Shown here piece after piece: positions 40,338-58,135 of a stretch of 64,000 nucleotides of DNA. The translations under genes and the position numbers were made by a program. The notes under the pieces were generated by a model. That model made no database searches. It was not told where the DNA came from and worked only from the letters and a program-made list of their open reading frames with translations. Within the stretch, counting starts at the first letter, position 1. Each line of letters opens with the position of its first letter. Source of the DNA: Bacillus massiliglaciei (lineage in GTDB: Bacteria > Bacillota > Bacilli > Bacillales > DSM-1321); the NCBI RefSeq assembly GCF_900098925.1, contig NZ_LT622357.1:148170-212169 (forward strand), written 5' to 3'.

Positions 40338-43124
40338 ATAGTGATAGGTAAACCTTTGATATAATCTCCAGTTTTTCCCCCACTTCACACCGTACGTGAG
40401 ATTTTCACCTCATACGGCGTTCCATCGACTAACTTCAAAACTTTGTTAATCTACATAACTTTACAGAATTCACATCTTATCACATGTTTGTCCTTTTACA
40501 TCACTAAGTCTACCAGCTCAAGTTTTTTTCTTAGCTTATTGAGTTTATCCAAAACCCTAGTGTTTGTTATTAGATGTTTATACTTAGAGATTGTGCTTTC
40601 ATCCTTAGCGTGGATAAGGATATGAACCCCTTTATCCACCAAACAAAGATTTTTATATTCATCAGTTCCGCCTTTAGTCCTCGGAACTTTGTGATGGCAA
40701 TGTATCGATAAAGGATGAAGTAACTCACCTGTTACGCTACATTTTCCACCTTGTCCACTATATAATGCAACTCGATTATCATTATACTCTACACTGCGAT
40801 CTCTCACAGGATGCTCCATAATATATCTCAATATCGCTATGTTTATTTTTGAAAGGTTACGATGAATTTCTTTTCGTCCTTCCTTAGTGTAGGCATTGAC
40901 AATCTTTCGTTTCATCATTGGGTTTTTATGTCTGATATACCCAATAGGTAATAGTGGATTTCTTGATATAAACCTCATTTGTTTACTTTTCCCGTATTCC
41001 TTTCTAATAAAGTCTGAACTAATATGCCCAGTTTTCTTAATTCGCCTTTTCATGGGGTGATCTTTCATACAAGCGTTAATCTCATATGCAATATCTCCCA
41101 TGTCTTCTGCGACTAAGGTGGCAATACGGCAATATTGATGAAGCCCAATAACTGTTGAGTTGTAGAGCGAGACTTTTCTCTGCTGGTCGTTAATTCCCTT
41201 ATCGTATCTAATATCATTGATGATTGCTTTGAGATTGTCTTTCGTTCTTTGTAATGCTTTATCGCATATATGACTCTTGACAATCCACTTGTTTCTTTTA
41301 GGGATTAACTTCATTTTGATGCCGAGAAATTCGGAGTAATCCATTTTTAAATTTACTATTTGAGATTTCTCTTCACTTATGTCAAGTTCGAGCCTATCTT
41401 TCAGCCACTTTTTAACTGCAAGGTATAGTCTTTTAGCATGATTGGGATTGCTACAGAAAATCTTAAAATCATCTGCATATCTCACGATGTAGCATTCTTT
41501 TAACTTTGTTTTGTTCCTAAGTTTTCTGTATTTATATCCTTTTTCGATGCTTCCCTTTCTATCCTTTCTTGCGTAGATAAAATCATTGTATACAGGATTA
41601 TCCTCCCACTGGCTCTCTACCCACTTATCTAATTCATTTAACACGATGTTTGACATTAAGGGAGAAAGTATTCCTCCTTGAGGAGTACCCTTGTTATTTT
41701 CAATGATTTGTCCATTTGGTAGCTTGATTTTGGCTTTTAACATTTTTGACACAATTGATAGTAAATTTTTGTCTCTGATACCTAATGTCCACATTTGCTT
41801 TAGTAACTTTCCGTGACTCACATTGTCAAAGAAACCTTTAATATCAATATCAATTACGAAATTCATTTTTCCTTGCTGCATTAATTTATAGCTTTGTGCT
41901 ATCGCATTCTCAACTGAGCGATTAGGTCTGAATCCGTAACTGTTATTTGAAAATTTAGCTTCTACAATGGGATCAAGTACTTGTAATATACATTGTTGGA
42001 CTATTCTATCCCAAATAGCTGGTATTCCTAAGGGTCTAGTTTTACCATTGGGTTTTGGTATTTCTACTCGTCGTACAGCTTTTGGATGATAATCTCTGAA
42101 TTTGTTCTTAACATACTCGATAAACTGTTGCTCACTAAGTTTGGCTACATGCTCAATTGTTCGTCCATCAACTCCAGCAGTTTTACTACCAGTGTTTTTC
42201 TTGATGTTACGATAGGCTAAATTAATGTTCTCATTTGAACTAATAATACTTATCAGGTTAGTAAATTTACTTCCTGATTTGCTTTGCTCGTACAGCATGT
42301 CGAAAGTACTTTGCATACTGTAGTACTCTGCATTGCGTAATTTAGACCTTTTCACATGTTTTGCAATTTGTGAATTTACCACAGACATCAACCCCTTTCT
42401 CAAGCGGTGATTCTCTTAGTCATAATCGAATCTGTGTCTGTTATGCATTTATAAGTCTTTGAAGTTACCGACTAGAGCCTATTCCTCCACCACTTATTAT
42501 TATGGTTTCACAGGTACAATGGCTCCACTCTCACATGAGTAAATCGGTTTTAGTAGGTCACACACCCTTTATATACCGAACTGCTTCTTTGGTAGGTTAA
42601 TACCTCCACACCCCATGTTTTCCACGTTCCAATTTCTCTATCCTTACATATATCCTTAGGTTTCTCCTATGGTCCTGTATGCTTGAACTTGCCTATAACA
42701 AGTTATGGATTTTCATAACGCCAGATTCTTACTCACCCACGCATACGATGGCACTGCCACCTGTTGCATTTCTACAACATCTACGTCTAGTCCCGTACAT
42801 TCGGAGATTCGTCAGTATTTCGCAATACATTCTAACCATAGATATTTTCTGGACTCCCGGCATATAGGATACACCATCCACCTCTGGACAGCTTTCGTGT
42901 ACTTATGTAGATGAAGATATTTCTACATGAGTCATACGGTATCTCTCTGCCGACTTCACCGAGCTTCACACCTTTCTATTTAACCTTAGAAAAAGCATGT
43001 CGGAGTATCAGAGTAGGCGTTTCAGGACGTTACGCCATCATTCCACCTATCAAGAAATCAGTTCTCCTAGAGATATTTAGAGACTCCCTAGTGCCTAACC
43101 TTTTCAGTTAGAAACGTGTCGCAC
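40338..43124 (-). mobile_element. Group II intron interrupting recJ
   Basis: A 2787-bp intron on the minus strand. The 5' end at 43124 reads GTGCGACACG, and the 3' end at 40338 reads CTATCACTAT (AY ending). A domain V-like hairpin (CCGTATGAGG...CTCACGTACGG, about 40384-40425) and a domain VI hairpin (40340-40382) precede the 3' end. Both ends are fixed exactly by the requirement to restore recJ: Asp-Tyr-Asp-Ala-Asp-Gly-Val without a shift. Domains I-III fill 42404-43124. The host position is the middle of a conserved catalytic motif, as expected for retrohoming to a fixed DNA target. Confidence 0.95.
40496..42388 (-). CDS. ltrA: Group II intron reverse transcriptase/maturase with HNH endonuclease
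   Basis: A 630-aa intron-encoded protein, about 210 residues longer than the one at 76-1335 and only distantly similar. RT blocks: NNSYGFRPNRS (about 148-158), KGTPQGGILSP (about 233-243) and catalytic YADD (about 304-307). A maturase X region follows (about 400-520). The last 90 residues hold an HNH nuclease (CSVTGELLHPLSIHCHHKV, about 550-570, then TDEYKNLCLVDKGVH), giving second-strand cleavage for retrohoming. I chose ATG 42388 with AAAGG five bases upstream; a TTG 15 bases earlier is an alternative. The frame is intact, so the intron may be mobile and self-sufficient for splicing. Confidence 0.93.
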   Translation of the reverse strand: MSVVNSQIAKHVKRSKLRNAEYYSMQSTFDMLYEQSKSGSKFTNLISIISSNENINLAYRNIKKNTGSKTAGVDGRTIEHVAKLSEQQFIEYVKNKFRDYHPKAVRRVEIPKPNGKTRPLGIPAIWDRIVQQCILQVLDPIVEAKFSNNSYGFRPNRSVENAIAQSYKLMQQGKMNFVIDIDIKGFFDNVSHGKLLKQMWTLGIRDKNLLSIVSKMLKAKIKLPNGQIIENNKGTPQGGILSPLMSNIVLNELDKWVESQWEDNPVYNDFIYARKDRKGSIEKGYKYRKLRNKTKLKECYIVRYADDFKIFCSNPNHAKRLYLAVKKWLKDRLELDISEEKSQIVNLKMDYSEFLGIKMKLIPKRNKWIVKSHICDKALQRTKDNLKAIINDIRYDKGINDQQRKVSLYNSTVIGLHQYCRIATLVAEDMGDIAYEINACMKDHPMKRRIKKTGHISSDFIRKEYGKSKQMRFISRNPLLPIGYIRHKNPMMKRKIVNAYTKEGRKEIHRNLSKINIAILRYIMEHPVRDRSVEYNDNRVALYSGQGGKCSVTGELLHPLSIHCHHKVPRTKGGTDEYKNLCLVDKGVHILIHAKDESTISKYKHLITNTRVLDKLNKLRKKLELVDLVM

Positions 43125-56301: not shown

Positions 56302-58135
56302 TGCTTTCATCAACAATAGTTGGCATTCCAAATGCTTCAGGAGCCCGGATGCCTCCAAATTGATCAGGCATGAAAGCGCCCGGCATTCCCGGCATAGGTC
56401 CTGGCATCATTCTCGGCATACCCCCTTGCATTTGTCCCGGCATCATTCCCGGCATGCCCCCTTGCATTTGTCCCGGCATCATTCCCGGCATGCCTCCTTG
56501 CATTTGTCCCGGCATCATTCCCGGCATGCCTCCTTGCATTTGTCCTGGCATCATTCCCGGCATGCCTCCTTGCATTTGTCCTGGCATCATTCCCGGCATG
56601 CTCCCCTGCATATGTCCGTGTCCCATACCAGGCATGTTTCCCTGCATATGGTGTCCGTGTCCCATATCCGGCATGTTTCCCTGCATATGATGTCCGTGTC
56701 CCATATCCGGCATATTCCCCTGCATATGATGTCCGTGTCCCATATCCGGCATGTTTCCCTGCATATGGTGTCCGTGTCCCATATCCGGCATGTTTCCCTG
56801 CATATGGTGTCCGTGTCCCATATCCGGCATGTTTCCCTGCATGAATGGACCGCTCATTGAATCAGAGTTCATGCCATGCTGCATGCCCATTACATGATGG
56901 TGTTCTGTTTTTTCATGGCCGCCAAAGTCCGTTCCTCCTGAATGCGGAAAAGCCCCAGGAGCAAAATTCTGCTGTTTTATAATAAAGGCCTGCTCATGAT
57001 GATGGTGAGAAGGATGACTTCCATGTGCCGGCTTTCCTTCCGTCATTGGTGCGCCCGGCATAAATTGGCCTTTTACTTCTGGTCCGTAAGTACCGACAAT
57101 CGGACTTCCGCATCCGCAATCTTCTTCCTGCTGGAAAGAAGGCTGGACATATGAATGGGGCTGCTGAAAATGCCCCGGCATTTGATAAGAAGAGGACTCT
57201 TCCATATATTCATATGTCTGTTGGTTAAACATCCCTCCTGCAGATTGCTGTGTCGGGCTTTGGTATGGATGTTGGCCGGGAACGGGCATTTGATACGGAT
57301 GCATCGGCATGGTTGGAAAACCGCCTGCTGCTCCCTGGGCATGAGCGGACGGAAACATATCGGAAGAAGATTCATTCCAGCAGTCTGCGCTTTCCTCTGT
57401 CCCCTGCCACTGCATCCCCGCGACATTGCCCATCATTGGGGGACTAAACATTCCCTGTACCTGAGGCTGCGGCATTGGAGCAGACGGAAAACTGCCATGT
57501 GCCGGTCCCGCACATGCCCATGGCGGCGGAGGACATTTAAATCCAGAGCCTGGCATAATTGGGGTAACCGGTATACAATCTGGTTCTTGCGAAATTGGCA
57601 TTGGCAGCGGCACTGGCTTCGCAGCCGGCGGCTGCTGGACAGCTTCTGCTTTAGGCGGTTCTGGAATTTTAGGCTGTTCCTTCGGTGTTTGCGCAACAGA
57701 CATATTCGCCATATTTACCATATAATAATTGTTAATATCCACTTCAGGAAGAACCGGCTTTGGCACTTCTTTAACAATCGGCTTTTCCTTGATTACGACC
57801 TTTTCTTTGGGCTGCTGTATAGGCATTTCTTTTGCGATTGGGTATGGCTGAGCGGCAGGCTTTTGCTGAGGCGGCGGTGCCATTGGCACTTCCTTTGCCA
57901 TCGGCTGCTGCTGCGGCTGTACCGGATGTTCTTTCGCGCTGTAATGGACCTGAGGCTGGCCAGTCTGTTTTTTTACAGTACCTGACGTTCCAGGTATCTT
58001 AATTTTCATACCAGGCATCATCATATCTGGATTGCTTAATTGCGAATTTATTTTCTTGAGCTCTTCAAAACTGACGCCATACTTTTTTGAGAGCTTCCAA
58101 AGTGTATCGCCTTTTTGGACTATATGAATTTTCAC
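56291..58135 (-). CDS. safA: Spore morphogenetic protein SafA with expanded Met/His repeats
   Basis: A 614-aa protein, longer than the 387-aa B. subtilis SafA. The start is GTG at 58135, with GGAGGGG eight bases upstream; it begins [21 protein letters not shown] LysM domain (about 1-48) binds peptidoglycan and brings SafA to the cortex-coat interface, with the SpoVID partner. The rest is proline, glutamine and methionine rich, low complexity. Residues about 434-570 form a tandem repeat region listed separately. The acidic and cysteine motif [18 protein letters not shown] (about 345-362) may be a SpoVID- or coat-contact site. No signal peptide. Repeats are read in only one intact frame as protein. 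Confidence 0.93.
56426..56836 (-). repeat. In-frame tandem repeats in safA
   Basis: On the minus strand five copies of a 39-bp unit ([13 protein letters not shown]) are followed by six copies of a related 36-bp unit: [24 protein letters not shown] and four of [12 protein letters not shown]. The region is 411 bp. Copies are nearly identical in DNA, with only a few silent changes, so recent expansion by slippage or recombination is likely. It should vary in length between strains. Confidence 0.92.

Follow-up and report, generated by a model that had tools for sequence, protein, structure and literature searches.

How does a group II intron persist in the catalytic codon of a repair gene, and what becomes of the element once it is there? 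The question is raised by a 64,000-nt stretch of the Bacillus massiliglaciei genome (hereafter the window; RefSeq assembly GCF_900098925.1, contig NZ_LT622357.1, positions 148,170 to 212,169 of the forward strand), on whose minus strand a 2787-nt group II intron interrupts the motif I codon of recJ (Table 1). We find that 24 genomes from nine genera carry an intron at exactly this recJ codon. Our best reading, which we hold with high confidence, is that a recJ-homing retroelement has repeatedly decayed into a splicing-only intron of a housekeeping gene. The recurrence, horizontal movement, and frequent loss of the intron-encoded protein (IEP) are the more surprising part of the case and lay beyond the reach of the original prediction, which was made from the letters of the window.

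The intron in the motif I codon of recJ

The boundaries proposed originally, GTGCG at 43124 and AT at 40338, are confirmed by exon reading, by Rfam, and by the boundaries shared with other genomes, and the window shows the group II pattern of a 5′ GTGYG, a 3′ AY, and a restored exon frame. Joining the exons gives 791 codons whose sole stop is terminal, i.e., the 790-aa RecJ with GDYDADGV restored that had been predicted. Because all 23 of the 24 recJ introns with a visible 3′ end read G/GTGCGAC...CACTAT/AYGG (slashes mark the junctions), these boundaries are not a product of chance. The aspartates of this motif bind metals, and when the RecJ of a sister species is aligned to solved RecJ structures, GDYDADGV coincides with the same motif in 8y30 and 5f54.

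In the unspliced message, translation enters the intron for five codons (GATRF) and stops before the motif is complete. Together with purifying selection on recJ (below), this early stop lends indirect support to the earlier claim that RecJ depends on splicing. A backup recJ, which the original prediction had named as the finding that would make this copy dispensable, was rejected, since the window genome (4.14 Mb, 18 contigs, 100% complete) yields a single RecJ match at E 0.01. The same genome holds one full copy of the intron and four other matches, all of them pieces of 59 or 66 nt at 74–76% identity.

Both the ribozyme and the IEP are recognizable in the window (Table 1). Domains 5 and 6 (D5–D6) contain a CGC triad, as read by eye, and a bulged branch-point A at 40345; this A, 8 nt from the intron end in the consensus fold, is invariant in 23/23 introns. 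The IEP matches the group II reverse transcriptase (RT)/maturase model TIGR04416 (339 bits against a cut-off of 300) and RVT_1 (E 1.2e-40), and a Pfam search found no match to the maturase model GIIM. Of the intact RT-HNH protein described originally, the RT part is clear and the HNH part is weakly matched.

Table 1. Features of the interrupted recJ gene, in window coordinates
Feature	Position	Strand	Details
recJ exon 1	43398-43125	minus	274 nt = 91 codons + 1 nt; last bases GGT GAT TAT GAT GCA G
Group II intron	43124-40338	minus	2787 nt, GTGCGAC...CACTAT
Ribozyme core, domains 1 to 4 (D1-D4)	43066-42846	minus	Rfam RF02004 group-II-D1D4-5, 172.4 bits, E 4.6e-39
Exon-binding site 1 (EBS1) guide	42718-42724	minus	C TGGCGT, intron nt 401-407; predicted pairing with last bases of exon 1
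IEP	42403-40496	minus	635 aa, RT/maturase; TTG start as listed, ATG 5 codons in
D5-D6	40422-40338	minus	RF00029, 59.8 bits, above gathering score; ends exactly at the intron's last base, 40338
recJ exon 2	40337-38239	minus	First bases AT GGT GTC; rest of DHH, DHHA1, OB, and C-terminal domains

Recurrence at one codon and movement between genera

A pattern-based scan of 84,980 species, one genome per species, returned 56 IEP relatives. The nine most similar, which come from one Metalysinibacillus, two Lysinibacillus, four Sporosarcina, and two Kurthia, all interrupt recJ at the same codon. The 24 intron-bearing genomes comprise that of the window, 2/24 genomes of family f40 (G171 and G1003), and 21/261 of family f49, where junction-pattern matches fall in 7/19 genera and exon 2 is visible in 20/21. 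Among 397 genomes of the window's order there were three junction-pattern matches (the window, G171, and one without intron 5′ sequence), and a DNA search of 398 genomes drawn across the class gave four (the window and three of f49). Of the 24 f40 genomes three gave matches: those of G171 and G1003 lie at recJ, and that of G115 is a distant relative elsewhere. A DNA search of 36 genomes of the window's own genus matched the window and three genomes with distant relatives away from recJ. The large DNA searches, of the class draw and of the families, scored only 2 to 12 candidates per genome. Related intron DNA without a recJ junction is present in G821, G914, and G998 (f49) as well as in G115.

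Empty sites in relatives, proposed originally as a check, were found: the motif is uninterrupted in 68/68 intronless RecJ examined, and within the window's genus it was inspected in 29/35 other species. That the intron recurs at this codon across nine genera also fits the earlier suggestion that the element sits where the host DNA is most conserved. A candidate constraint on the third base of the Ala codon (T in 0/24 intron-bearing and 8/66 empty sites) was set aside as nonsignificant (P = 0.10 Fisher's exact test).

On a RecJ tree of 50 rows, with intronless rows chosen by hand, the presence and absence of the intron requires 12 changes. One account of this distribution is that the intron is old in Bacillales recJ and was inherited vertically, with many losses and little horizontal movement. 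Species of one genus do share the intron (G696, G759, G533, G945, and G961), and intron identity correlates with RecJ identity (Spearman 0.47). However, whole introns are 90% identical across families where recJ exon 2 is 57% identical at the nucleotide level (G1003 of f40 and G805 of f49, a starred pair), the 5′ ribozymes of G851 and G961 are 97.2% identical against 58.4% for recJ, and the IEP remnant of G851 is 97% identical to the corresponding part of the G759 intron over 352 nt, yet their recJ exon 2 sequences are 59% identical. Starred intron groups also cross genera, joining G787 with G795, G851 with four g201 introns, and G1003 with G805. Near-identical introns in divergent recJ genes are explained most simply by horizontal transfer into the same codon, and we consider a mainly vertical history improbable.

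No recJ-lineage copy was present among 350 plasmid records with IEP relatives at E 1e-100 or among 9 phage records at E 1e-50, all of them below 60% identity; one viral contig carries an IEP relative at 52% identity. The intron of G794 (L155) is possibly a mosaic, in which the 5′ part of D4 is nearest to G795 (93%) and the 3′ part is nearest to G818 (95%).

Loss of the IEP and retention of the ribozyme

The IEP is intact in 13 of the 24 recJ introns, carries one frameshift in another (G818), and is absent or fragmentary in the remaining ten. These ten introns, which lack the open reading frame (ORF), range from 664 to 1741 nt, with no two of the same length. Their hosts belong to seven genera, and in four of these another species has an intact IEP; IEP loss is therefore most likely to have been repeated. 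The ribozyme, by comparison, is retained: of 20 sources scanned, among which were all ten ORF-less copies, every one matched the D1–D4 model RF02004 and 19 matched the D5–D6 model RF00029. The one without a D5–D6 match (L164) is truncated at a contig end, and L170, L171, and L173 were left out of the scan. In predicted consensus structures, compensatory changes are seen in 7/29 predicted pairs of D5–D6 and in 26/110 predicted pairs of the first 420 intron nt, the latter in an alignment of 20/24 introns that leaves out G911, G797, G961, and G759; G832, which meets a contig end, was left out of the D5–D6 and exon 2 analyses. The recJ intron of G911 (L167) carries an insertion of about 300 nt in D1, following intron nt 32, that by eye resembles an IS605-type element end.

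The ORF-less copies might be dead introns that do not splice, with recJ inactivated in the species that carry them. Six of the ten genomes show no other IEP (E 1e-10, one search), and the IEP is said to be necessary for in-cell splicing of most group II introns in the passages of PMC3919590 available to us. Against inactivation, the splice sites are invariant and recJ exon 2 is open in all ten ORF-less copies (visible in G787 for 296 codons, to the contig end), D5–D6 pairing is maintained by compensatory changes, and the ratio of nonsynonymous to synonymous substitution rates (dN/dS) in recJ is 0.064 and 0.035 in the two pairs with the ORF missing on both sides (G809–G822 and G845–G851). Across all 12 intron-bearing pairs tested recJ dN/dS is 0.028–0.094, beside 0.042–0.092 in seven other pairs, including two that are intronless on both sides (0.079 and 0.054); the pair G171–L194 was saturated. 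No second RecJ was found in the six ORF-less genomes searched (G787, G794, G797, G822, and G911 at E 1e-100, and G171 at E 1e-50), where the RecJ of G787 is split over two contigs; G809, G845, G851, and G976 lay outside those draws. Purifying selection on RecJ across the intron implies splicing, and we regard inactivation as very improbable.

Alternatively, the ORF-less introns may be spliced in trans by the IEP of a different group II intron, an action described in the available passages of PMC4424553. In a single search of the 24 intron-bearing genomes with the IEP as query (E 1e-10), G794, G809, G822, and G171 proved to hold distant IEP relatives elsewhere in the genome, the best 31–50% identical and that of G794 a full-length open frame. 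However, G787 (only 90% complete), G797, G845, G911, and G976 gave no match at this threshold, and G851 gave only its own remnant. Since this search listed matches with as little as 29–31% identity in other intron-bearing genomes, a standard IEP would be expected to appear in it, and we consider splicing in trans rather unlikely.

How unusual such introns are among bacteria can be gauged from the parts of the literature available to us. Most bacterial group II introns carry their own IEP, and a 2015 review places most of them outside housekeeping genes; it describes bacterial ORF-less introns as rare, with C.te.I1 the sole known one that has no IEP in its genome (PMC4424553). C.te.I1 lies by a surface-layer protein gene of Clostridium tetani and undergoes alternative splicing (PMC3919590). 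At E 1e-10, five of the ten ORF-less recJ copies are likewise bacterial group II introns with no IEP anywhere in the genome, as is that of G851 save for its own remnant, while those of G794, G809, G822, and G171 and the window's IEP-bearing copy are not of this kind. Unlike C.te.I1, the recJ introns are exact introns in a conserved repair gene, are found in several species, and have IEP-bearing sister copies. Organellar ORF-less group II introns are splicing-only elements of housekeeping genes, many with IEP remnants (PMC4424553), and the ORF-less recJ copies resemble them in being splicing-only in a housekeeping gene, but their hosts are free-living bacteria. ORF-less introns of phages (PMC12350094) and circularly permuted introns without an IEP (PMC8637638) are also on record, and a survey of prokaryotic introns that includes ORF-less ones has no recJ case in the passages available (PMC8919778). 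The recJ insertion is undescribed in the titles and abstract openings of the open-licence PMC literature on group II introns and recJ, a scope that does not take in intron databases, so that the insertion may have been reported elsewhere.

At this one codon of recJ the intron is found with its ORF intact, frameshifted, deleted in part, or missing altogether. Because some of the carriers are named species that can be cultured, the passage from a retroelement to an intron that only splices is open to direct tests. It is to our minds an evenly balanced proposition that Bacillales recJ holds a series in which a mobile retroelement has repeatedly become a maturase-free intron that does no more than splice, and in which copies down to 664 nt are self-splicing or assisted by host proteins. 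If true, the recJ series would parallel, in bacteria, the transition that organellar and nuclear introns are postulated to have undergone.

Target recognition and the wider intron family

EBS1 was located at intron nt 402–407 by its complementarity in members of the wider family that occupy other sites; in 23 such members, 0/2000 shuffles were as good for the position of pairing with intron-binding site 1 (IBS1), although 13 of these rows come from two shared sites and are not independent. An earlier candidate for EBS1, at intron nt 589, was dropped once the wider family had placed the guide. Within the recJ lineage EBS1 is nearly constant, and in 20/23 rows, by eye, a G faces the third base of the Asp codon and can pair with either T or C. 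Single cases (G805 and G832) gave the impression, by eye, that guide and exon co-adapt at synonymous positions; this was rejected, as a shuffle test within the recJ set found no such effect. G911 was left out of both the EBS1 comparison and the shuffle test, and L076, L079, L081, and L087 were left out of the comparison.

Under the homing-and-decay reading, a group II intron lineage specialized for one recJ codon would retrohome into the conserved motif I sequence through base pairing between EBS1 and the exon end, and would spread horizontally between Bacillales genera. Hosts would tolerate the intron because splicing removes it and restores RecJ. The window copy, with its intact IEP, would represent the mobile form; in other species, with the IEP lost but the ribozyme kept, the intron would persist as a splicing-only intron of a housekeeping gene.

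Several points weigh against this reading. We infer splicing in the cell, as we do retrohoming and the route by which ORF-less copies splice. The structures used for covariation were predicted from the same alignments, and the dN/dS values are simple NG86 estimates with dS >1 in several pairs. The ribozyme tree, from which G911 was left out for its insertion in D1, is poorly resolved (4/20 inner branches starred), and slow ribozyme evolution could partly mimic transfer, although whole introns including the IEP show the same pattern. The HNH match at the C terminus of the window IEP is weak (PF01844, E 0.0076) and below the Pfam cut-off. Finally, EBS1 shows no covariation with its target within the recJ set (own guides −5.49 versus swapped guides −5.83 kcal/mol, with 1850/2000 shuffles as good or better), and pairing between EBS1 and the exon is poor in G818 and G831.

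Beyond recJ, introns of the wider family lie in Maff2, RecD2, DnaE, and NrdD genes of gut Firmicutes and Bacilli (one example of each by family search). They belong to the same intron and IEP family (38–56% IEP identity) and share the GTGYGAY 5′ end and, in the members compared, the EBS1 position; they differ from the recJ intron in target gene, and the boundary comparison covers their 5′ ends. Of 47 non-recJ loci, 43 were inspected for a 5′ boundary and 27 showed one. The family is thus found in catalytic codons, in DHH motif I of RecJ and in Walker A of RecD2, and inteins likewise sit in catalytic codons. A recA intron of Geobacillus kaustophilus was reportedly described by Chee and Takami in 2005; compared by title only, it too is a group II intron in a housekeeping recombination gene of a Bacillus relative, in another gene and at another site.

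Two groups of wider-family loci are recorded here as observations. In three Bacilli metagenome assemblies, introns (L082–L084) begin within the codons for Walker A (GGPGTGK) in RecD2-like genes, with membership in RecD2 tested for L083 only. A sister intron lineage in gut Clostridia (L049, L051–L056, L077, L078, and L090) sits at GGNTAYGGNAAYGAYAAYC/ codons (GYGNDN), with the Maff2 family tested for L051 only.

Elsewhere in the window, we take the upstream neighbor of recJ to be secDF and the downstream ones to be apt and relA. A second group II intron occupies 2-1803 on the minus strand (RF02001, RF01998, and RF00029) and encodes a 419-aa RT with a maturase domain. Dozens of copies of a 431–438 aa relative appear in the genome search, many of them paired exactly 1885 bp apart in the manner of tandem insertions. 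A tandem-repeat array with repeats of 12 to 108 nt lies at 56384-56842.
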